From: a virus
Direction: 5' to 3' (one strand)
IMG/VR virus record: IMGVR_UViG_3300019093_000748
Coordinates: 1-24,757 of that record
Length of the DNA: 24,757 nucleotides
Numbering within the stretch: the stretch's first letter is position 1; the number at the start of each line of letters is the position of its first letter. The position numbers and the translations under genes are program-made. Shown one piece after another: positions 15,651 through 24,541 of this stretch. Below the pieces are notes generated by a model. That model did no database searches. It had not been told where the DNA came from and saw only the letters and a program-made list of their open reading frames with translations.

Positions 15651-15683
15651 CCAAGTCATAACTTGCTTAATAGGAGATATAAT

Positions 15684-16136
15684 ATGACACAATTCAGTAT
15701 CAACACGTTTGACCTTCCCACACTTCACGCACACATTCATCGCCACGCAGTTGGTTTTGATCGTATGTTTGATGACCTAAATCGCACTTTTGCCAACACC
15801 AAAACCGATGGCAATTACCCTCCATACAACATCATCAAAGTTGACGAAAACAACTATGCCATTCAGGTGGCAGTTGCTGGCTTCAGCGATGACGAGCTGG
15901 ATGTTGAGTGCAAAGAAAACACTCTTACCATCAGTGGAGAGCGCAAGGTCAAGGATGAACAAGAGTACTTGCATCGTGGCATCAGTGCCCGTAACTTCAC
16001 TCGCAGTTTTACATTGGCAGATCATGTCAACGTCAAAGCCGCCACGGTGATCAATGGTATTCTTGCAATCAGTCTTGAGCACGTGGTTCCTGAGGAACAA
16101 AAAGCCAAAAAGATTGCTATTACTTACGCAAAGTAA
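15684..16136 (+). CDS. Hsp20 / alpha-crystallin small heat-shock protein
   Basis: The ATG at 15684 has TAGGAG about 7 bases upstream; the TTG at 15663 lies before this site and is rejected. The protein is 150 residues, IbpA-like: VGFDRMFDDLNRTF is the typical N-terminal motif, and the alpha-crystallin domain spans about 43-140 (YNIIKVDENNYAIQVAVAGF; LDVECKENTLTISGER; YLHRGISARNFTRSF; INGILAISLEHVVPEE). It ends KKIAITYAK. It would hold unfolded proteins during infection or virion assembly. Hsp20 genes are a known auxiliary gene of marine T4-like phages. Dual promoters suggest expression throughout infection. Confidence 0.97.
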   Translation: MTQFSINTFDLPTLHAHIHRHAVGFDRMFDDLNRTFANTKTDGNYPPYNIIKVDENNYAIQVAVAGFSDDELDVECKENTLTISGERKVKDEQEYLHRGISARNFTRSFTLADHVNVKAATVINGILAISLEHVVPEEQKAKKIAITYAK

Positions 16137-16174
16137 TATAATCTAAGAACCAAGCAGGGGAATCATCTCCTGCT
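16114..16174 (+). promoter_or_regulatory. Promoter inside the hsp20 3' end, followed by a leader hairpin for clpS
   Basis: TTGCTA (16114-16119), a 17-base spacer and TATAAT (16137-16142) predict a start near 16149. AGCAGGGGA (16153-16161) then pairs with TCTCCTGCT (16166-16174), nine pairs with one G-U, around ATCA. There is no T-run after it, so the hairpin would lie at the 5' end of the clpS mRNA. It could equally be an imperfect end of the hsp20 transcript. Confidence 0.6.
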
Positions 16175-16192
16175 ATTGCATCCAATCAAAAT

Positions 16193-16501
16193 ATGCCAAC
16201 TGTAGAAACTATCGTACGTCCCAAAATTATACCCAAAACAGAGTTGGCTGAACCCAGCTTGTTCAATGTGATCTATGTCAACGACGACAAAACCACAATG
16301 GAATTTGTGGTCGAAAGTCTCAAGGCCATTTTTGATTACGATGAAGAATCGGCCGTGGCTCTGGCCAATCGTATACACGAAGAAGGTTCGGGCATAGTTG
16401 CTACCCTGCCGTACGAAATGGCTGAACAAAAAGGTATTGAAGCCACTTTGTTGGCACGTAACAACGGATTCCCGCTGTCGGTCAAATTGGAACAGGCATG
16501 A
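16193..16501 (+). CDS. clpS: ClpS-like N-end-rule adaptor for the ClpAP protease
   Basis: The 102-residue protein carries the ClpS core: FNVIYVNDDKTTMEFVVESL with Asn30-Asp31-Asp32, which hold the alpha-amino group of N-degron substrates, and IHEEGSGIVATLPYEMAEQK with His62, the other pocket residue. LLARNNGFPLSVKLEQA matches the end of the domain. The N-terminal 20 residues are the flexible extension that enters ClpA. A phage copy could redirect host ClpAP toward or away from N-end-rule substrates. No Shine-Dalgarno is clear. Its stop overlaps the next ATG (ATGA at 16498-16501). Confidence 0.93.
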   Translation: MPTVETIVRPKIIPKTELAEPSLFNVIYVNDDKTTMEFVVESLKAIFDYDEESAVALANRIHEEGSGIVATLPYEMAEQKGIEATLLARNNGFPLSVKLEQA

Positions 16502-16977: not shown

Positions 16978-16994
16978 TAGTGTACAATACACTA
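16960..16994 (+). promoter_or_regulatory. Consensus sigma70 promoter with an overlapping palindrome
   Basis: TTGACA (16960-16965), a 17-base spacer and TACAAT (16983-16988), all overlapping the end of the previous gene. TAGTGT (16978-16983) and ACACTA (16989-16994) form an inverted repeat around the -10, a plausible repressor site. The next ATG begins 5 bases after the -10, so the RNA would be leaderless. Confidence 0.72.
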
Positions 16995-17539
16995 TGGATG
17001 CGATGCTCGACTTAGAAACCCTTAGTACCAGACCCGAAAGTGTGATTCTCACTATTGGTGCTGTCAAATTTGACCCTTACTCAGACTTGATTGATATGGA
17101 TCACGGATTGTATTACCGTGTGAACGTGGACGAACAGTTGGCCATGGATCGCCATGTGCTTGACAGCACCATTGAATGGTGGGGCAATCAAGATGCCGAA
17201 GTGCGCGAAGAAGCCCTGGGCGAACAAGATCGTGTGAGCCTAGAAGATATGACACGTGGCTTAAATCGATTCTTAGTGGGTGTGGAAAACATCTGGTGTC
17301 AGGGTCCTGCGTTCGACATTGTTATCTTAGAAAACTTATATCGACAGCTGGTCAAACCCACCCCTTGGCAGTTTTGGCAAATTTCAGACAGTCGTACCCT
17401 GTTCAAGACACACGGTGATCCCAGGGACAAAAATCGAACTGCCGCACACAATGCCTTGATGGACTGTTATTATCAGGCCACAGCAGTGCAGGAAATTTAT
17501 CGTACCGTGGGCATCAAGAAACGTGAATGGAACAACTGA
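16994..17539 (+). CDS. DexA/Rv2179c-type 3'-5' exonuclease (DnaQ-like, DEDD)
   Basis: This is a 181-residue RNase-H-fold exonuclease. Exo I is DLETLSTRP (Asp6, Glu8), exo II is GPAFDIVIL (Asp108), and exo III is AAHNALMDC (His152 and Asp157, the DEDDh form). The layout matches T4 DexA and the related Rv2179c-like exonucleases, which degrade single-stranded DNA or RNA 3' ends. It may start at ATG 16994 or 17003; no Shine-Dalgarno is present, and the promoter -10 is 5 bases upstream, so the transcript is predicted leaderless. The stop overlaps the next ATG (TGATG). Confidence 0.93.
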   Translation: MDAMLDLETLSTRPESVILTIGAVKFDPYSDLIDMDHGLYYRVNVDEQLAMDRHVLDSTIEWWGNQDAEVREEALGEQDRVSLEDMTRGLNRFLVGVENIWCQGPAFDIVILENLYRQLVKPTPWQFWQISDSRTLFKTHGDPRDKNRTAAHNALMDCYYQATAVQEIYRTVGIKKREWNN

Positions 17540-17841
17540 TGCAAATAATTTTTTCAAGAGCTGCCGCAGAGCAGTTGGCAGATACCTATACCATACTGGA
17601 ATTAGAATCATTTGATGTTGAAGGTCAGTTGCTGGAAACCTTTTGTGTGGTATCCGCAGATCAGATGAATCTGGGCGATATGCCCACATTGGATCACGAC
17701 AAACAGCTACACGCCAAGTTTATTGATCATTTGCAACGCCGGGACTATGCCATATGCGAGCAGTTGATTCTGCATCTACGTGGTCGATTTGGTGGTGAAC
17801 TTGACAGTTTCTACGACGAGGTTAGCAAGAGATTCGAATAA
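17539..17841 (+). CDS. Hypothetical phage protein (100 aa) coupled to the exonuclease
   Basis: The ATG at 17539 overlaps the exonuclease TGA (17537-17539). An in-frame ATG at 17527 would add four residues. The protein reads MQIIFSRAAAEQLADTYTIL and then ELESFDVEGQLLETFCVVSA; the ending is helical (FGGELDSFYDEVSKRF). I know similar small proteins with a TxLELxSF pattern from T4-like phages but no function. No membrane or export signal. A late-type element overlaps its stop. Confidence 0.82.
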   Translation: MQIIFSRAAAEQLADTYTILELESFDVEGQLLETFCVVSADQMNLGDMPTLDHDKQLHAKFIDHLQRRDYAICEQLILHLRGRFGGELDSFYDEVSKRFE

Positions 17842-17844
17842 ATA
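17837..17844 (+). promoter_or_regulatory. Late-promoter-like AATAAATA abutting the next start
   Basis: AATAAATA overlaps the stop codon of the previous gene (TAA 17839-17841) and ends 6 bases before the ATG at 17850, which has no Shine-Dalgarno. With T4-like geometry the RNA would begin at the ATG. Confidence 0.55.
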
Positions 17845-17849
17845 CAAGT

Positions 17850-18167
17850 ATGAAAAAATTCTTAGCCGCAGTATTATTTCTATCAATGTTGTCGGCTCGA
17901 GCCGATCTATCGGACAAAATTGTAGTGGTAAGATGTGGTTCAGAAAAAGATATAAAGGCCATCACAGGTGCCTACCATGAAAAACCCATAGTTATAGCCA
18001 CTCATAAAGATGATGGCATAGTAATAATTGTGTGGGCCAACAAACAAACACAAACCAGTACTTGGGTAGTTCATATACCCAGTACAGGTGAGTATTGTAC
18101 CCTGGCATCAGGAACAGAATTATTGATTATAGAACAGATGAAAAACAGTACAGTGCATTACCGTTAG
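17850..18167 (+). CDS. Small exported (periplasmic) protein with two cysteines (105 aa)
   Basis: A Sec signal peptide is clear: MKKFLAAVLFLSMLSARA, then D, with cleavage after ARA at about residue 18. The mature part is a small beta-rich domain with two cysteines (VVRCGSEKD and GEYCTLASGTE), which could form one disulfide. The TWVVHIP...CTLASG pattern resembles small periplasmic proteins of proteobacteria whose function I do not know. It is the first of a run of exported products that continues to 21398 and ends at its own terminator. It may be leaderless. Confidence 0.82.
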   Translation: MKKFLAAVLFLSMLSARADLSDKIVVVRCGSEKDIKAITGAYHEKPIVIATHKDDGIVIIVWANKQTQTSTWVVHIPSTGEYCTLASGTELLIIEQMKNSTVHYR

Positions 18168-18174
18168 AAACAAG

Positions 18175-18196
18175 GCCCCACTAGTTGGGGCTTTTT
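18175..18196 (+). terminator. Rho-independent terminator
   Basis: GCCCCA (18175-18180) pairs with TGGGGC (18186-18191) around CTAGT, followed by TTTTT (18192-18196). It lies 7 bases after the stop of the exported 105-residue protein. Confidence 0.9.
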
Positions 18197-18222
18197 ATTG
18201 ACCATGAAGGAGAATAATAAAA

Positions 18223-18381
18223 ATGAGTTGGTTCAAGCACACACCCCCAAAAAATCCGCCTCCGGCAAGACATCACCTGCATCCACACAGAACTAGTCCT
18301 GTGGCAGATAAGATGTTGGAAGAGGCCAAGGCCATGGGGCCTGCGGAAAAAAACAAAAAGAAAAAATCAAGCACTAGTTAA
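18223..18381 (+). CDS. Small proline/histidine/lysine-rich phage protein (52 aa)
   Basis: ATG 18223 has an AAGGAGA site (about 18207-18213). The 52 codons start MSWFKHTPPKNPPPARHHLH, continue with a helical SPVADKMLEEAKAMG segment and end in a lysine cluster. I recall short proteins of this shape (WFK...PR.PP..HPHR.SP) from T4-like marine phages; function unknown. Lys-rich tail and Pro/His-rich start suggest a disordered nucleic-acid-binding or virion-associated protein. Confidence 0.78.
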   Translation: MSWFKHTPPKNPPPARHHLHPHRTSPVADKMLEEAKAMGPAEKNKKKKSSTS

Positions 18382-18397
18382 CTATTTGTGATTTAGA

Positions 18398-18441
18398 TCT
18401 AAATATAATAAGTAGACACCAATAAGAACATAATAGTCTAC
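18398..18441 (+). promoter_or_regulatory. Late-type element and 5' hairpin ahead of the autotransporter gene
   Basis: TCTAAATA (18398-18405) is followed by GTAGAC (18412-18417) and its perfect complement GTCTAC (18436-18441), separated by 18 bases. The RNA would start at about the foot of this stem. AAAGGAGC before the ATG at 18460 is a strong ribosome site. No other promoter is apparent for the autotransporter operon. Confidence 0.55.
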
Positions 18442-18459
18442 AGTAAAAGGAGCTAAATC

Positions 18460-20808
18460 ATGGGTAAGTCAATTACCAAATTTCTTACGAGCTTGGCCGT
18501 GGCCTTCTCGTCATTTGCCGCACACGCTGATTTTACAGATTTACAATTTGGTCAAGCACAAATAGCAGACAGTCAGTGGAATGTCAATGCTTGTATGAAT
18601 ACGACCACTTGTCAAATCTACAGTAAAAATCCAGGAACAGCTTACAAGATTCCATGGACCAATGGTCAATTATCATGGTCGACTGGAGATTATGTTCGAT
18701 TCGTGGCAACCGGTAATGTTACCAATCCATACAATGCCATTCAATATACATCTGCTGGTGTACAAAAAGCAGTAATGGGCACTGGGCATATTATCAATAT
18801 GGGTACAGACTATTTCTTCTTTGTGGGCAATGACAACGACACCGGACAGTTGTTTAGTATGACACAAGGCTTTGCCAATACAACTGGTTTGTCTTGGACC
18901 GGAACACGCAATCCAACAGTATCGGAAGTTAATGCATTGAGTGTGGGAGGTTCTACCACACCACTGGCACCAGGTCAAACTGCGGCACCGGCTGCACCCA
19001 CTACAAATCCCACAGCAGTCACCAGCAGTATCATTGCTACAGTGACTCCCACCAGTACAAACAGTCCAGTCGGCGAAGGTGCTGCCAAGGCAGTTGATGG
19101 AACAAGTTCGAGCAAGTATCTAAACTTTGACCGTGCCAACGCTGGCTTCACAATCACACTAAATGCTGGTAAAGTAATCAATGGTGTTAAGTTTACAACA
19201 GCTAACGACTTTGTACCAAGAGACCCTACCAAATTTACGTTGTATGGTAGTAATGATGGTCACACCTGGACAGAAATCACAGCTAACCAAAGTACAACAT
19301 TGGAAAATGTGAGTGGTCGTTATACACAAACTGGTATGATCACCATCAACAATACCAATCCTTATGTGTACTACTTTATCACATTTCCAAGCATCAAAGC
19401 CATTGATACCTATGGTTCAGTTGCTGGCTGTAGATCTGCGCTGGGAACATTGGCCTGTGACAGTATGCAAATTGGCGAAGTTACCTATTACTATGACAGC
19501 AACAATACTGCCACCAGTACCAGCACCCTGGTGGGCTCTATTGCCAATCCAGGCACAGCAGGCGCAACATCCAGTATGAATACTTCGCCCACTGTGGTCA
19601 GCACAGCCCCTGGCTCGGACATTGTGACAACAGCAAGCACTCCCGGCTCAACCACTTCTGCAACCACAGTCACTAGAGGCACAACTGCCACCGCTTCGGT
19701 CACAACCGACACTCGTGATCGTCAACCCAAGGTGCTGAACATCAACAGAAACATCACCGTCACGGACACAACCCCTGTGACTACCACGGTGGTTCAAACT
19801 ACTCCTGTAACAACCACAACTACAACAACTCCTGTGACTGTCACAACCTGGAGCGACGGTACCACAACTACCACCAATGGAAATCCTGTGGTGACTGTTA
19901 CTGTAACAGACAACGTGGTCACCACAGCCACCACAGCGGACGATATACAGGTCACCAGTACTGATAGATTGTATTCAACACGTATTGATCAGTTTGATCG
20001 TCTAGTCGAAGCCAACACCAGAGAAAATCTAGCATTGGCCAGCGACCCATTGAGTCGTCACAGAGTGCTTGACAGCGAAATCAAATTGATGGGTGCCAAT
20101 GTAAACGAACGCACTGTTTTTACTGTACAAGGATCTAACCAAAACAGTAGCGTACAAGATGGTTATAGTTTGACTTCCAACCGTTATGTGTTGGGCCTGG
20201 CACACAGACTCAGAACAGATCTATTGATTGGAGCACAGTACAGTCAATCTAGACTACAGTTGGGCGGCAATGCCAGCAGTGGCGTACTAGACAAAAATGC
20301 AATCAACCTGTATTCTTTATGGACCAAGAATGATTGGTTAGTAAAAGGAGACCTAGGATATGCACAGAATGACTACAATACCACCCATACACTTAATGAG
20401 TTGGGCTTGTCCAACAGTGCTCGTGCTTCGGGCAATGATGTCTGGGCCGCAGTAAGAGCCTACACTCCTGCTGTCAAAGGCGTCAGACTGTTTGCTGGTG
20501 CCAGACGTGAACACAACCGCAGAGACTATGCTGTAGACGCCGGTTCGGCCTTGTCTGCAGTTGACTATGCCGCAGTCAATGCAGTCAACAACATCACAGA
20601 AGCAGGTGTACGTTTGGATCACTATGTGAATGATAAAGTAAACATCTATGCTGAATATGCACACAATAATCGTCAAATCTCCACCAGCAAACTGGGTTTA
20701 AGTTATTTGTCCGGACCATACAGTTCGATTCAAATTGGTGCTACTCAACAACGTCAAAACGGACAGCAATTCAACGGCGCAGTTTTAGAGGTGAGACTAT
20801 TGTTCTAA
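18460..20808 (+). CDS. Autotransporter-like outer-membrane protein with discoidin-type domain and Thr-rich stalk (782 aa)
   Basis: A Sec signal peptide (residues 1-23, ending AHA before DFTDL) starts the protein. Residues 24-160 are unassigned and hold one Cys pair (NACMNTTTCQ). Residues about 191-347 look like an F5/8 type C (discoidin) carbohydrate-binding domain: AAKAVDGTSSSKYLNFDRAN, then FTLYGSNDGHTWTEI. Residues about 348-500 are a Thr/Val/Pro-rich stalk (TTTTTTTPVTVTTWSDG). From about 500 a helical linker (QFDRLVEANTREN) leads to a C-terminal region of about 275 residues with alternating strands (RYVLGLAHRL, LIGAQYSQSRLQL, NIYAEYAHNN) ending AVLEVRLLF. The terminal Phe and size match type V autotransporter beta-domains. 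It should sit in the host outer membrane, displaying the N-terminal domains. A strong ribosome site is present. Confidence 0.85.
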   Translation: MGKSITKFLTSLAVAFSSFAAHADFTDLQFGQAQIADSQWNVNACMNTTTCQIYSKNPGTAYKIPWTNGQLSWSTGDYVRFVATGNVTNPYNAIQYTSAGVQKAVMGTGHIINMGTDYFFFVGNDNDTGQLFSMTQGFANTTGLSWTGTRNPTVSEVNALSVGGSTTPLAPGQTAAPAAPTTNPTAVTSSIIATVTPTSTNSPVGEGAAKAVDGTSSSKYLNFDRANAGFTITLNAGKVINGVKFTTANDFVPRDPTKFTLYGSNDGHTWTEITANQSTTLENVSGRYTQTGMITINNTNPYVYYFITFPSIKAIDTYGSVAGCRSALGTLACDSMQIGEVTYYYDSNNTATSTSTLVGSIANPGTAGATSSMNTSPTVVSTAPGSDIVTTASTPGSTTSATTVTRGTTATASVTTDTRDRQPKVLNINRNITVTDTTPVTTTVVQTTPVTTTTTTTPVTVTTWSDGTTTTTNGNPVVTVTVTDNVVTTATTADDIQVTSTDRLYSTRIDQFDRLVEANTRENLALASDPLSRHRVLDSEIKLMGANVNERTVFTVQGSNQNSSVQDGYSLTSNRYVLGLAHRLRTDLLIGAQYSQSRLQLGGNASSGVLDKNAINLYSLWTKNDWLVKGDLGYAQNDYNTTHTLNELGLSNSARASGNDVWAAVRAYTPAVKGVRLFAGARREHNRRDYAVDAGSALSAVDYAAVNAVNNITEAGVRLDHYVNDKVNIYAEYAHNNRQISTSKLGLSYLSGPYSSIQIGATQQRQNGQQFNGAVLEVRLLF

Positions 20809-20809
20809 A

Positions 20810-21121
20810 ATGAAAACCATTAACAAAGTGTTGTTGGGCATGGCCGCGGTGACCACTGTGTTGGCACCGCTGGTTCCAAAGAACATCAACATCAATGTTA
20901 ATTTGGCAGCACAATCCTCTGGTGTCAAAAAAGAACGCCCTTATCAAACAGTAGAAACACAATGCGATCTACGTGGCACATCCATAACCGATTCGGGTAT
21001 GCAGGTATGTGAATACACTTGTCGTGGTGGCGACAAAGTGACCATTTACAAAACCTTTAGATCCAACGCCATGCACTGCTCACAAACCACCACTGAACGG
21101 GTAAAACAAACCAAAAGGTAG
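20810..21121 (+). CDS. Small exported protein with four cysteines (103 aa)
   Basis: The ATG is one base after the autotransporter stop, so the two are co-translated. MKTINKVLLGMAAVTTVLAP is a signal-peptide-like or anchor segment, followed by about 75 polar residues with Cys52, Cys67, Cys71 and Cys90 (CDLRG; CEYTC; HCSQTT), enough for two disulfides. Cleavage is unclear (possibly near residue 34, NLAAQ). Tight coupling suggests a partner, chaperone or ligand of the outer-membrane protein in the periplasm. No family recognised. Confidence 0.78.
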   Translation: MKTINKVLLGMAAVTTVLAPLVPKNININVNLAAQSSGVKKERPYQTVETQCDLRGTSITDSGMQVCEYTCRGGDKVTIYKTFRSNAMHCSQTTTERVKQTKR

Positions 21122-21152
21122 TCAACGCTTTAGAGGGCTGCCGCGTTATATA

Positions 21153-21177
21153 TATGTAGGTGATAAAATCCTACATA
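21153..21177. promoter_or_regulatory. Perfect inverted repeat in the leader of the small secreted gene
   Basis: TATGTAGG (21153-21160) and CCTACATA (21170-21177) pair perfectly around the 9-base TGATAAAAT. The preceding TATATATA (21147-21154) is one base from the late-promoter consensus. The arm/loop geometry (8-9-8) equals that of the repeat at 467-491. The ribosome site AAAGGAAA follows at about 21181-21188. Confidence 0.6.
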
Positions 21178-21194
21178 ACCCAAAGGAAACTCAA

Positions 21195-21398
21195 ATGAAA
21201 TCATTTATTGCAACCATTGTCGCCCTGTTGGCTATCTCTGCTTCGGCTGCCGATGTAGCCAAACCTGCTGTGACCGCAACAGCACCTGCCGCACCGGTCG
21301 TGGCCAAGGAGGAGGCTAAAAAGCCCACTACTAAAAGTTCCGCTAAAAAGGACACAAAAGCATCTACTCCAGCAACTGCACCGGCAGCCAGCAAGTGA
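21195..21398 (+). CDS. Secreted Lys/Ala/Pro/Thr-rich small protein (67 aa)
   Basis: MKSFIATIVALLAISASAAD is a textbook signal peptide with cleavage after about residue 18 or 19. The mature 48 residues are low-complexity: AKPAVTATAPAAPVVAKEEA, then KKPTTKSSAKKDTKAS. Such peptides in bacteria often lie along peptidoglycan or bind anionic surfaces. It has its own AAAGGAAA site and hairpin leader. The frame +1 to it, beginning just at its stop codon, is a conserved-looking ORF (21394-21582), so fusion by frameshifting cannot be excluded. Confidence 0.78.
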   Translation: MKSFIATIVALLAISASAADVAKPAVTATAPAAPVVAKEEAKKPTTKSSAKKDTKASTPATAPAASK

Positions 21399-21582
21399 TC
21401 TAGATGATAGCGACTATGGCGAATATGACGAAATTGATTTTCACATAGGCTATCGTCGCCCTGAACTGGTCAAGCATTATACATCATACGAAGATGATGA
21501 ACCATTATCGGATTATGTTACTGTTAGATTAGCAGTGGCTCGAGCCCGAGCCATGGCTCGTTACAGAGAACTCCAGGTCTAA
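21394..21582 (+). pseudogene. Conserved-looking phage ORF with no start codon (about 62 codons)
   Basis: From AGT at 21394 the frame reads SDLDDSDYGEYDEIDFHIGY, then RRPELVKHYTSYEDDEPLSD and YVTVRLAVARARAMARYREL, ending QV at TAA 21580-21582. The composition and the DYVxxRLAxARxxAxxxYRE pattern look like a real small T4-like phage protein. However, the frame is open only back to 21274, where it runs inside the Lys/Ala-rich gene, and contains no ATG, GTG or TTG. Either an ancestral ATG before AGT was lost when the upstream gene was placed there, or it is read by +1 shifting at the upstream TGA, or it starts at a rare codon. Confidence 0.55.
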
Positions 21583-21604
21583 AACTCCTGGAGTTTTTTT
21601 TTTT
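21569..21604 (+). terminator. Rho-independent terminator enclosing a stop codon
   Basis: AACTCCAGG (21569-21577) pairs perfectly with CCTGGAGTT (21587-21595), with the TAA of the preceding ORF in the loop, followed by T from 21594 to 21604. It closes the exported-protein operon. Confidence 0.93.
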
Positions 21605-21620
21605 GACTGATATTGCCTGT

Positions 21621-21648
21621 AATAAATATTTGTGTAGCAACAGCTACA
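21621..21648 (+). promoter_or_regulatory. Late-type promoter with 5'-terminal hairpin
   Basis: AATAAATA (21621-21628) is followed by TTGTGTAGC, the same nine bases found after the hsp20 late element. TGTAGC (21633-21638) pairs with GCTACA (21643-21648) around AACA. The RNA would begin at the foot of this hairpin. AAGGAGA lies before the ATG at 21686. Confidence 0.65.
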
Positions 21649-21685
21649 GCTCGTGTTAAACACACATACACACAAGGAGAAAAAT

Positions 21686-21913
21686 ATGAGCAAAACACCT
21701 TACGAGATCCGTCTCGAACTTCTTAGCCTGGCCAAAGAAATTCTTTCAACGCCAGTTCATGAAAAACGCAATCACTTGGCCAACGAGTACCACTCCAAAC
21801 TGAATGATGCCAATCGTGCAACCCTTCCGTACCCAACCATGCCTGATTTTCCGAGTACCACGGATATCATTGCACAGGCTGAAGCACTGAAGAAGTTTGT
21901 AGACCAAGCGTAA
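21686..21913 (+). CDS. Small conserved-type phage protein (75 aa)
   Basis: The start at 21686 is fixed by AAGGAGA about 9 bases upstream; the TTG at 21653 lies before this ribosome site. It reads MSKTPYEIRLELLSLAKEIL, with a helical middle and a terminal FPSTTDIIAQAEALKKFVDQ. The TPYEIRLELL opening is, to my memory, shared by small proteins of many T4-like phages. No motif shows a function. It ends at a bidirectional terminator facing the minus-strand virion gene. Confidence 0.85.
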   Translation: MSKTPYEIRLELLSLAKEILSTPVHEKRNHLANEYHSKLNDANRATLPYPTMPDFPSTTDIIAQAEALKKFVDQA

Positions 21914-21915
21914 AA

Positions 21916-21939
21916 ATAAAGCCCCGAAAGGGGCTTTAT
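21916..21939. terminator. Bidirectional terminator between convergent genes
   Basis: ATAAAGCCCC (21916-21925) pairs with GGGGCTTTAT (21930-21939) over a GAAA tetraloop. On the minus strand the stem is followed by TTTTTA, a better tract than on the plus strand, so it serves both the 75-residue gene and the minus-strand gene that ends at 21961. Confidence 0.9.
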
Positions 21940-21960
21940 CAATTACCTTTATTTAATTTA

Positions 21961-22620
21961 TTAACCTTGCCAAGCACCGCCGGCCACTCGGTACCACATC
22001 TTGTTGTTCACAGTGTCCACTGCCACATCAATGATTTGACCATTGGTTTCAAAAATCGCATAACCAGAATCTATTGGGGCATTGTTGGTCCAAACACTGC
22101 CATCATCGTATATGCTAAGGGCCTGGTTGTCAACTCCTAGGAATTTATTGGGGCTACCTATATAGTCTGTAGTGGCACTGCCCACACCAACACCGTCGTT
22201 GCCCCCACCCGACCATGCGGTATGAGTCACGCTGAACATGCGTTTGGTACCTGGTGCAATCACATATGAGCCCAAGACAGCATTGTTGGCGTTACTGAGA
22301 GCAGTAGCAGTATCATTTGTATTGGTTGTGGTGGTCACACTAACATAAGTTGGATCAAATTGTGTCCAGTCCCAGTTGTTTAAAAAAGTAAATCCTGCAG
22401 GTGTACCATAGGTACTGGCTGGGTTGACTATAAACTCAGTATTATAAGTTCCATCGTATACGCTGATAGCAGGGTAGAGATTTTGTGGCAACCCGGCAAT
22501 CACTGCCAGACTGAAACCACCTGTGTTGGTGGCCGGATCTACCGGGGGACTGCCACCTCCATCTCCACCAATATTGATACCGCCACCTATTGTTATTCCG
22601 CTACCGATTTGAATTGCCAT
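21961..22620 (-). CDS. Virion/tail-fibre-like protein with SPRY-type C-terminus (219 aa)
   Basis: The N-terminus is a Gly/Ile repeat (MAIQIGSGITIGGGINIGGD) like the trimerising start of tail fibres. The rest is beta-rich and low in charge; the C-terminal part (LSIYDDGSVWTNNAPIDSGY, then GQIIDVAVDTVNNKMWYRV) follows the SPRY/B30.2-like pattern of phage and receptor-binding proteins. It stops abruptly at GGAWQG, where related sequences as I recall them continue, so C-terminal truncation is possible. No signal peptide. It has its own minus-strand late-type element and faces the plus-strand genes. Confidence 0.75.
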   Translation of the reverse strand: MAIQIGSGITIGGGINIGGDGGGSPPVDPATNTGGFSLAVIAGLPQNLYPAISVYDGTYNTEFIVNPASTYGTPAGFTFLNNWDWTQFDPTYVSVTTTTNTNDTATALSNANNAVLGSYVIAPGTKRMFSVTHTAWSGGGNDGVGVGSATTDYIGSPNKFLGVDNQALSIYDDGSVWTNNAPIDSGYAIFETNGQIIDVAVDTVNNKMWYRVAGGAWQG

Positions 22621-22650
22621 GGTTTACTTTCTATGATTACTTGTATATAA

Positions 22651-22658
22651 TATTTAGT
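22651..22658 (-). promoter_or_regulatory. Minus-strand late-promoter-like ACTAAATA
   Basis: On the minus strand ACTAAATA ends 31 bases before the ATG at 22620, with a predicted leader of about 25 bases. It lies back-to-back with the plus-strand TATAAATA at 22669, forming a divergent promoter pair. Confidence 0.55.
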
Positions 22659-22668
22659 TAACGGGCAC

Positions 22669-22676
22669 TATAAATA
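22669..22676 (+). promoter_or_regulatory. Exact T4-type late promoter TATAAATA
   Basis: This is the only element in the window that matches TATAAATA exactly. It ends 8 bases before the ATG at 22684, so the leader would be at most about two bases; no Shine-Dalgarno is present. Confidence 0.7.
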
Positions 22677-22683
22677 ACAAACT

Positions 22684-23400
22684 ATGATGAGATTTACACT
22701 ATTATTTCTGCTGGCCTTGCCTGTGCAAGCAGAAATGTTGGCCAAGGCCTGGTTAGTTGCTGATGCCAATGGTGTCATTATAGAACAGCACAACAGCACA
22801 GACATTCAGCCCATTGCATCGATTACCAAACTCATGACAGCCATGGTTGTGCTAGACAGCAATCCCAACCTCAATGAACGTGTCAAAAAGTTTAGGGGTT
22901 TAACTGTAACCAAACAACAACTGTTGGATCTTGCCATAGTACACAGCGACAACCGTGCCGCAGATCAACTGTGCCGTACATATCGGCTGGGATATCGAGC
23001 CTGCGTTGCAGAAATGAATCACAAAGCTGAAATATTGGGAATGACCAACACACAGTACTACGACAGCACAGGGCTGGATAATCGCAACACCAGCAATGCT
23101 GTGGACTTGCTCAAGTTGTTGCAGGCCGCTGAACGCTATCCCGAAATAGTCAGCGCCAGCAGACAAACAGTGGTCAATCTACAAAAGAAACGTCATCGCT
23201 GGGCATTTACCAACACCAATCCACTAGTTGCCAGATACAATGTTGTTGTCAGCAAAACCGGTTATGTTCGTGCCAGCGGTGGCTGCATGGTAATGAGTGT
23301 GGTGCAAGACGGCGTCAAGCGATTTTTTGTTGTGCTGAACAGCCGTACCACACGTACCAGAGTACATGACATGGAATCACTTATCTTGGACAAGAACTAA
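22684..23400 (+). CDS. Exported serine-type D-Ala-D-Ala carboxypeptidase/endopeptidase (peptidase S11, PBP7-like)
   Basis: The 238-residue enzyme has a signal peptide (MMRFTLLFLLALPVQA, cleaved near residue 16) and the full penicillin-binding-protein triad: SITK (Ser46, Lys49), SDN (88-90) and KTG (191-193, in VVSKTGYVRASGG). It has only the catalytic domain and lacks the C-terminal domain and membrane anchor of PBP5/6, so it resembles PBP7/PbpG, which cuts D-Ala-mDAP crosslinks. It would act in the periplasm on host peptidoglycan, either in remodelling or as a lysis aid. ATG 22687 is an alternative start. Its 3' end overlaps the minus-strand gene by 20 bases. Confidence 0.95.
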   Translation: MMRFTLLFLLALPVQAEMLAKAWLVADANGVIIEQHNSTDIQPIASITKLMTAMVVLDSNPNLNERVKKFRGLTVTKQQLLDLAIVHSDNRAADQLCRTYRLGYRACVAEMNHKAEILGMTNTQYYDSTGLDNRNTSNAVDLLKLLQAAERYPEIVSASRQTVVNLQKKRHRWAFTNTNPLVARYNVVVSKTGYVRASGGCMVMSVVQDGVKRFFVVLNSRTTRTRVHDMESLILDKN

Positions 23401-24541
23401 GCAAAGGCCATACTCGTTCTAGGGTACGATAATTCTTTTCCGCTGACACGTAGTTTAACAATTCAGGATTGTTACGTGCAATCAACTGTTTGCTTACAGC
23501 ACTATCCATTATTTGACTCACAGCCACATCAAAGGGCAGTTGAAGCATCAATTTGAAAATTTCCAAATCACGCAAGGGTGTCCAGGTCAGGGTATTGCCC
23601 AAATGCCAGTGCTGATAGTCGTTGATGTTCTCATTGCACAGTTGACGGAACAATATGTCTCTATTGTCGACCAGTTGTTGAACTTTTTTGTCGGCCAACT
23701 GACCTTGGAATATGGCCATGTTCTCTGCTTTTGAAAAGTATCGGTGTTGCATACAAGGCCCGTACACGTCTAATTGTTCAGGTATGTTGGTTCCGTAATG
23801 CATCAGATACATGTTGGCCAACGCCGGACTTCTAAGCATATATTCATCACCGGGGGTACCAGTCATCAACACACAGGGTTCAAGCCAATGATGTATCTGA
23901 TTATAGGCCCAGCTCCGTCTAATGTCATCTTTGTTACGAGACCAAAACGCATCAAACTCAAACACTTCGCCCGATACCAACTCAAACTGATCAGTATGAC
24001 GACAAAGAAAACTGTAGACCAACATGGAATCAACGCCACCAGACAAAAACACTTTCAGGGGCTGTTGATTGTTGCGTAGGAAGTTAGACACCGTGTGGTC
24101 AATGACGTTATAAAGATCGTTGATGACTTTATCCGCAGATCCGACATCGGATGGTACAGAACCAATTTGATCTAGTGCTTGTTCTGTTATCTGTAACTGT
24201 TGATCCACTGTGATTTCTTTGTTGGACCATATGGTCCTATCTGTGATTGTTTCTGTTAAATTGTCTATGCAGTGATCATTGACACAAATAGGAAAACTTC
24301 TATATCGGCTGGTTTTTAGTGTGATGGTTCCGTGTTCGTGATCAAACACCATGACACAAAAATTGCCTGGTTGTTGGTCAATGCGATCCAACTGTGTAGC
24401 CAAAGCAAAATCGTTGGCATACCCTTTGTACAAATAGTTGCTCTGGTGGTGCCACCCGCTGTCGTAACTTACCACAAGATTCTGAAACTTCAATGAATTG
24501 ACAAAGCGTGAGTCTGGTTTGTTTGATACGGAAAAGAACAT
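23381..24541 (-). CDS. Asparagine-synthetase-like protein with degenerate glutaminase domain (386 aa)
   Basis: Residues 165-175 (VFLSGGVDSML) are the PP-loop SGGxDS of AsnB-type ATP pyrophosphatases, followed by HTDQFELVSGEVFEFDAFWS and a GTPGDEYML segment. Residues 1-90 have the shape of the class II amidotransferase domain (NFCVMVFDHEHGTITLKTSR, YRSFPI) but the chain begins Met-Phe-Phe, with no Cys at position 2, so glutamine hydrolysis is unlikely, as in beta-lactam synthetase-like members. It probably makes an amide or adenylated intermediate using ammonia or another amine; the substrate is unknown. The start overlaps the previous minus-strand stop (TAATG), and the 3' end overlaps the carboxypeptidase gene. 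Confidence 0.82.
   Translation of the reverse strand: MFFSVSNKPDSRFVNSLKFQNLVVSYDSGWHHQSNYLYKGYANDFALATQLDRIDQQPGNFCVMVFDHEHGTITLKTSRYRSFPICVNDHCIDNLTETITDRTIWSNKEITVDQQLQITEQALDQIGSVPSDVGSADKVINDLYNVIDHTVSNFLRNNQQPLKVFLSGGVDSMLVYSFLCRHTDQFELVSGEVFEFDAFWSRNKDDIRRSWAYNQIHHWLEPCVLMTGTPGDEYMLRSPALANMYLMHYGTNIPEQLDVYGPCMQHRYFSKAENMAIFQGQLADKKVQQLVDNRDILFRQLCNENINDYQHWHLGNTLTWTPLRDLEIFKLMLQLPFDVAVSQIMDSAVSKQLIARNNPELLNYVSAEKNYRTLERVWPLLSSCPR

Follow-up and report, generated by a model that had tools for sequence, protein, structure and literature searches.

The closest described systems are the phage curli of pelagimyophages, pelagipodophages and Melnitz, an OM43 phage. In the available parts of the published accounts, phage CsgF and CsgG are connected with "sibling capture" (PMC7029224), the CsgG/CsgF genes of Melnitz with lysis (PMC9004378), and the phage type VIII secretion system (T8SS) is given the gene order HK, CsgF, CsgG, CsgA/B, FecR, second CsgA/B, AC (PMC9599517). 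Nutrient uptake, lysis timing, sibling capture and superinfection defence are the roles proposed in those parts, where the purpose of phage-made curli stands as an open question (PMC7029224; PMC9004378; PMC9599517). Phage curli are thus already known. The available text of the same three papers does not contain the word "autotransporter", and neither a phage autotransporter with the passenger described below nor the autotransporter alternative to curli was found, by title or abstract, in the open-licence PMC literature, where absence is weak evidence. The YadA-domain structural proteins of PMC9146016, as far as its available part describes them, are of a different kind. Here, a virus record of 24,757 bases (IMG/VR IMGVR_UViG_3300019093_000748, positions 1 to 24,757; "the window" below means this whole stretch) was analyzed and found to encode a predicted autotransporter of 782 aa, AT782. 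Like the phage curli loci, it is a phage-borne locus for a surface structure, but it contains neither CsgG nor a curlin repeat, and the passenger that relatives have on curlin repeats sits on an autotransporter barrel. We consider it reasonably probable that AT782 is a phage type Va autotransporter displaying its passenger on the infected cell, and that it belongs to a family with two anchors, a barrel or curlin repeats.

The gene and its parts are as follows:

18460–20808, + strand: AT782, with putative signal peptide, N-domain, F5/8C domain, Thr-rich stalk, helix and 12-strand barrel
18529–18975, + strand: N-domain (residues 24–172), a phage-only passenger domain that is also found on curlin proteins
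19006–19509, + strand: F5/8C (discoidin/CBM32-like) domain (residues 183–350), assigned by PF00754 and by fold
19552–19974, + strand: Thr-rich stalk (residues 365–505), with a YSDG/WSDG-type repeat present in both anchor classes
19990–20034, + strand: alpha-helix before the barrel (residues 511–525), as in NalP
20113–20805, + strand: 12-stranded beta-barrel translocator (residues 552–782), Phe last

A putative Sec signal peptide was recognized by eye and by the crude home-made rule (not SignalP) that underlies all signal-peptide calls given here. AT782 passed both PF03797 Autotransporter (37.1 bits against a cut-off of 26, residues 557–766) and PF00754 F5/8C (35.7 against 28.2, residues 199–285). 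In an AlphaFold model made from 23 aligned relatives, the helix at 511–525 is followed by 12 strands, and the predicted local distance difference test (pLDDT) in the barrel is mostly 86–96. Residues 508–782, helix included, superpose on NalP (1uyn) with a Z of 31.1 and a root-mean-square deviation of 1.8 over 259 residues; the next structural matches to the barrel were EstA, EspP, AIDA-I, AaaA and Hbp, and the sugar porins NanC (2wjq, Z 16.7) and KdgM reached about 17. In fold, residues 183–350 resemble the carbohydrate-binding domains of CBM32-like type and of galactose oxidase (Z 14–17). The protein ends in VLEVRLLF, and among the 17 barrels whose 3' end is intact, the last residue is Phe in 16 and W in one. 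As modeled, AT782 is a type Va autotransporter by every computable feature, and its passenger would be exposed. A first-pass annotation of the window, made from the letters alone, had called the product autotransporter-like, and this was borne out. The N-domain was modeled confidently (pLDDT 92.2); its structural matches, beta-trefoil lectins and PH-like folds among them, were too weak, and its fold was dropped both as a clue to function and as a possible new fold.

Among the classical type Va autotransporters, NalP, EstA and EspP have, like AT782, an N-terminal passenger behind what in AT782 is a putative signal peptide, the helix, the 12-strand barrel and the terminal Phe. AT782 differs from them in being encoded by a phage and in having a passenger built of an N-domain, a CBM32-like domain and a Thr-rich stalk, not a long beta-helix or an esterase; moreover, unlike classical passengers, it is common to curlin fibres. 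Two other assignments were rejected. A virion or tail protein was considered, given that F5/8C domains are known in tail proteins, and was discarded because of the putative signal peptide and the barrel. The protein WJZ47857.1 of the Synechococcus phage DSL-LC03, annotated as an autotransporter barrel and encoded beside endolysins, is 23.6% identical to the AT782 barrel (1e-3), but it covers 28% of AT782 and none of the passenger; it was not accepted as a true relative, since the barrel region is covered weakly and the Pfam Autotransporter family is missed.

The evidence for a second anchor comes from the relatives of the passenger. A search with AT782 returned 15 loci (relatives are given below by locus numbers, L), and in most of them the first 140–370 residues were 41–79% identical and the C-terminus consisted of curlin-type repeats instead of a barrel. 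CsgF, CsgG, FecR and Curlin_rpt were above the Pfam cut-off in proteins of these loci; AT782 itself matched neither Curlin_rpt nor the curlin region. The order CsgF-CsgG-CsgB-FecR-curlin-AC of the relatives agrees with the phage curli order given in the available part of PMC9599517, and homologues of the L005 curlin region were found among the proteins of HTVC008M (39%, 3e-19) and Melnitz (31%, 1e-5). A wider scan with the N-domain found 67 loci in viral contigs. Barrels were searched with a subset alignment (A3) as seed, and clustering at 95% identity yielded 85 non-redundant proteins, namely 18 barrel, 61 curlin and 6 undecided or truncated ones.

Seven passenger families, with N1 and N2 taken as one, were compared across the anchor classes by direct blastp. 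Five of the seven are present in both anchor classes, and in each the best cross-class match has an E-value no higher than 2e-37: N1 (3 non-redundant proteins with a barrel and 47 with curlin repeats; best cross pair the window and L103, 80%, 4e-85), F5/8C (4 and 19; 55%, 2e-51), N3 (2 and 8; 43%, 2e-40), N4 (4 and 3; 45%, 2e-37) and N5 (1 and 1; 52%, 3e-43). The PA14-like passenger was found on curlin only and N6 on the barrel only. The stalk motif was present in 13 of the 18 barrel proteins, 8 of the 61 curlin proteins and 3 of the 6 others, and in 1 of 970 other open reading frames (ORFs) of at least 300 aa. From this distribution, the Thr-rich stalk is a plausible recombination hinge between the two anchor classes.

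The N-domain is also under strong constraint. Between the window and L002, the N-domain is 93% identical (Ka/Ks 0.06, Ks 0.73) and the F5/8C domain 91% identical, with synonymous change saturated, and the stalk and barrel reach 56% and 42%. Against L003 the pattern is reversed (N-domain 30%, F5/8C 62%, stalk 74%), as would be expected of a mosaic. An alignment of 49 N-domains has 28 invariant columns, two Cys included. Among 17 records searched, the domain occurs once per record in all 10 that have it, and never on another gene there. No relative of the N-domain or the barrel was detected in a GTDB set of 84,980 bacterial and archaeal species scanned with short exact patterns, by which distant relatives may be missed.

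A curlin anchor should need the CsgG channel and a barrel anchor should not; the two classes were therefore compared for CsgG nearby, counting proteins with at least 4.5 kb of upstream sequence (9 curlin and 5 barrel proteins with less were set aside). CsgG lay within 7 kb of 52 of the 52 curlin-anchored proteins, versus 5 of the 13 barrel-anchored ones. In whole records, which may themselves be fragments, CsgG was present in 15 of 21, and the six without it were barrel records (L002, L007, L029, L030, L033 and L040); in a second set of whole records it was present in 8 of 19. No CsgG was found in the window, a fragment, nor in the 367,104-bp record of L002, which has an N1 barrel.

Both types of passenger protein occupy the same variable slot in related phages, beside the genes Hsp20, ClpS, nucleotidyltransferase and exonuclease. 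In the window, the genes of this region other than AT782 are:

16994–17539, + strand: Exo181, the exonuclease marker gene fixing the left edge of the variable surface slot
17850–18167, + strand: P105, from a family of small exported proteins in which two Cys are conserved, recurring just upstream of barrels and also elsewhere
18223–18381, + strand: P52, without signal peptide
20810–21121, + strand: Cys103, small protein with four Cys, separated from the barrel gene by one base
21195–21398, + strand: K67, exported Lys/Ala/Pro-rich peptide
22684–23400, + strand: PBP238, PBP7-like D-Ala-D-Ala endopeptidase, slot neighbour in many relatives (PBP, penicillin-binding protein)

When the slot was sampled with Exo181 as the anchor, not barrels, 70 loci fell into 46 clusters, and 33 with at least 2.5 kb downstream were counted (13 of the 46 had less and were set aside). 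T8SS genes were found in 12 of the 33, a barrel in 2, another large exported set (Big796) in 4, P105 in 11 and PBP in 10; 7 had no recognized slot gene and 3 none of these classes. Read from its gene content, the site that follows the exonuclease gene is a variable one taken by surface and envelope genes, with exported or surface systems in many relatives; barrels are a minority there. The window also encodes tail-fibre-like, nrdA, nrdB, PAAR, SleB-type hydrolase, Hsp20, ClpS and nucleotidyltransferase products (the nrdA, PAAR and tail-fibre labels were given from translations). For a 604-aa protein no relative was found among named phages. The NrdB of the window is nearest, at about 62%, to the jumbo phages CBB, GAP32 and XaC1 (350–378 kb), and several relatives of the window are records of 350–374 kb. 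The window therefore probably represents part of the genome of an uncultivated jumbo phage.

Other contents of the slot were noted in the same loci. The Hsp20 and ClpS genes adjoin it side by side (15681–16501 in the window), likewise in most relatives, and in some of these a DnaK-like gene, named from reading, lies near it (L021, 1727–3607); Hsp20, ClpS and the DnaK-like protein form a phage chaperone and protease-adaptor set beside the surface genes. In L004, L008, L009, L176 and L180 the slot contains CsgF, CsgG, a minor curlin, FecR and a passenger-curlin protein, and in L004, L009, L176 and L180 also a CHASE2-type adenylate cyclase, named from reading, for which the sequence covered in L008 does not extend far enough. 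The phages with these T8SS genes are other than those covered in the available parts of PMC7029224, PMC9599517 and PMC9004378. A second exported system occupies the slot in L024 (1179–4655), L034, L044, L183, L200, L208 and L210; it consists of a 151-aa exported protein, an exported protein of 755–804 aa with Cys-rich repeats, which had no Pfam or PHROGs match, and a coiled-coil-like protein of 210 aa. A 256-aa protein starting MDPLTLFALANGAV, to which no family could be assigned, is often encoded close to P105 and PBP within the slot (L030, 6301–7071, and many relatives).

From the computed fold, domain sharing, anchor exchange and slot we infer an outward topology, a display function, ligand binding and a purpose, as follows. 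By analogy with NalP, AT782 would be exported by Sec, and its helix and 12-strand barrel would then insert in the outer membrane of the infected cell, assisted by the beta-barrel assembly machinery (BAM); the barrel would carry the N-domain, the CBM32-like domain and the Thr-rich stalk to the cell outside. The passenger family would have two anchors, a self-sufficient barrel or curlin repeats secreted via the phage CsgG/CsgF. The head may bind a surface ligand, perhaps a sugar, and our first choice for its purpose is that the displayed head would tether neighbouring cells, with shielding against other phages as the second. Because the passenger persists when the anchor changes, the head is taken as the working part. 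What both formats have in common is probably that the infected cell displays a ligand-binding head, whereas making an amyloid or a pore would not be the purpose in itself.

More broadly, jumbo phages like those sampled here might run a dedicated surface-display programme, in which a phage-specific pool of heads is recombined via Thr-rich stalks onto a curli or an autotransporter anchor; this proposal is put forward tentatively, with slightly more doubt than belief. If true, phage curli would represent one of two ways of delivering a head that is itself the functional part, rather than the fibre or the CsgG pore. The same conserved head on an autotransporter that forms no amyloid and does not need CsgG argues against pore-only and fibre-only explanations. 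AT782 would also offer a single-gene, easily expressed version of the display system for testing the purpose of phage curli, and type V secretion would be added to the means that a phage seems to use in dressing its host.

Several results weigh against this interpretation. In 6 of the 18 barrel loci (L060, L175, L176, L179, L180 and L185) T8SS genes surround or precede the barrel gene, so the barrel sometimes adds to curli and does not replace it. Barrels are uncommon in the Exo181-anchored clusters, as counted above. Quick trees of the passenger domains, made without bootstrap and without the 6 undecided or truncated proteins, require the anchor to have changed twice in the N-domain tree and once in each of the F5/8C, N3 and N4 trees, and the term "exchangeable" therefore rests on few events; on these trees, where the anchors are clustered, anchor exchange is real but rare. 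Two barrels are marginal: that of L007 is 16% identical to the window barrel and has no Pfam match, and that of L002 fails PF03797; both were included when the barrel hidden Markov model was built. The predicted template modeling score of the whole AT782 model is 0.45, and the domain arrangement is thus not predicted. No PDB structure clearly resembled the N-domain (best Foldseek E 0.16; best VIA Z 3.5), which makes the binding role a guess. Finally, according to the available part of PMC9004378, no clumping was seen in cultures with Melnitz.

The displayed head could instead serve superinfection exclusion, by binding or masking a host receptor (lipopolysaccharide or a surface sugar) and so blocking the adsorption of other phages. 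The passenger has a carbohydrate-binding-type fold, and the F5/8C region of L004 matches a phage tail PHROG (phrog_17517, 3.5e-6), so that such domains serve phage adsorption elsewhere; exclusion is also discussed for phage curli in the available part of PMC9599517. However, a comparison with PHROGs found no known exclusion family among the genes of the block (AT782, Cys103 and P52 had no match at all), and in the 17 records searched no tail gene carried the N-domain. We regard exclusion as rather unlikely. A barrel acting as a pore, an uptake channel or an aid to lysis timing, with an incidental passenger, agrees poorly with the best structural match, NalP, a plugged translocator that includes the helix (Z 31, compared with about 17 in porins), and with a passenger far more conserved than the barrel against L002; this is quite improbable, even if some porins (NanC, 2wjq) do align to the barrel and such roles are proposed for phage CsgG/CsgF in the available parts of PMC7029224 and PMC9004378. 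Very little credit is given to chance cargo, that is, a host adhesin gene acquired by phages and without phage function: the position in a variable slot is moron-like, but the pattern scan of the GTDB set found no N-domain or barrel relative, the N-domain Ka/Ks is 0.06 and the 67 N-domain loci are in viral contigs. Display of a ligand-binding passenger by AT782 is the explanation preferred here.

A further alternative comes from the first-pass annotation, which had read five exported products within 17850–23400 as a possible surface-remodelling system. All five ORFs are at the places given there, and each is positive by the signal rule. This rule was positive in 7 of the 32 window genes tested (the five are P105, AT782, Cys103, K67 and PBP238); SleB185 and Exo181, the latter clearly a false positive, were kept out of the block. 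The one-base coupling was confirmed, as base 20809 alone lies between the barrel stop and the Cys103 start, and so were the four Cys of Cys103. The PBP7-like peptidase also holds: PBP238 passes PF00768 (4.9e-35), its closest solved relatives are the D-Ala-D-Ala/murein DD-endopeptidases 6azi (1.5e-33) and 6muq, and the motifs S46-ITK, S88-DN and K191-TG (SxxK, SxN, KTG) are present. By contrast, the "wall-binding-like" label of K67 found no backing, with no family match and a single homologue (L017). The block is also interrupted by two non-exported ORFs (P52 and g86) and one minus-strand ORF, on which that annotation was silent. What stands is an envelope locus with a true autotransporter-type outer-membrane protein, and not the named genes as one device.

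A joint device, in which P105, the barrel, Cys103, K67 and PBP would pass the barrel through the periplasm and wall and anchor it, was set against the gene order of relatives. The full block occurs in 1 of the 18 non-redundant barrel loci, which is the window, and the supposed order of barrel, Cys-rich partner, wall peptide and hydrolase is not conserved among them. P105 lies just upstream on the same strand in 8 of the 18, window included, and the tight barrel-Cys103 coupling recurs in L181, both of which favour a device; but Cys103 is directly behind the barrel in only these 2 of the 18 (the window and L181, both within 2 bp), K67 is present in 1 (the window) and PBP is within 2.5 kb downstream in 7. 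Moreover, in the close relative L017 the P105-like, P52, Cys103, K67-like and g86 genes follow one another as they do in the window, but no barrel gene lies among them, and in L054, L055 and L066 Cys103 lies beside PBP without a barrel. P105 and PBP are common without a barrel, which makes PBP a locus-wide neighbour and not a barrel partner. Autotransporter barrels are inserted by the host BAM, and between P105 and the barrel gene there is a terminator-like hairpin, which again speaks against the device. Such a device is improbable. As judged from gene order, the block brings together envelope genes that use a shared slot, and the barrel-Cys103 couple is possibly meaningful. The sharing of the passenger with curli, unforeseen by the first-pass annotation, is a much stronger link than this block. 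PBP238 has the family of the PBP7/PbpG endopeptidases and its three motifs; it differs from them in being phage-borne and shorter, and in neighbouring many slot contents without being barrel-specific. As this enzyme accompanies slot contents of several kinds, it probably has a general helper role in these phages, in the envelope or in lysis.

The hairpin between P105 and P52 (about 18171–18198) is strong relative to shuffles (z −2.8), and its position upstream of P52 suggests that the transcription unit of P52 is separate from that of P105. Operon signals in 17500–23500 were near chance (promoters 16 against 11.5, terminators 6 against 5.3), the single TATAAATA at 22669 is at chance level, and scans of the window gave no Rfam match and no tRNA. 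Another hairpin lies in the K67 5' leader, at 21153–21177 in the window and about 4829–4854 in L017, with changed sequence and a z of −1.3 and −1.7 only. Inside the block, 21961–22620 (− strand) encodes a 219-aa protein with a glycine-rich start and a weak SPRY match below the Pfam cut-off. An AsnB-like gene, below the Pfam cut-off, lies at 23381–24541 (− strand); its product is 47% identical to that of L181 12546–13748 (− strand), where the gene is also near the barrel-Cys103 pair.

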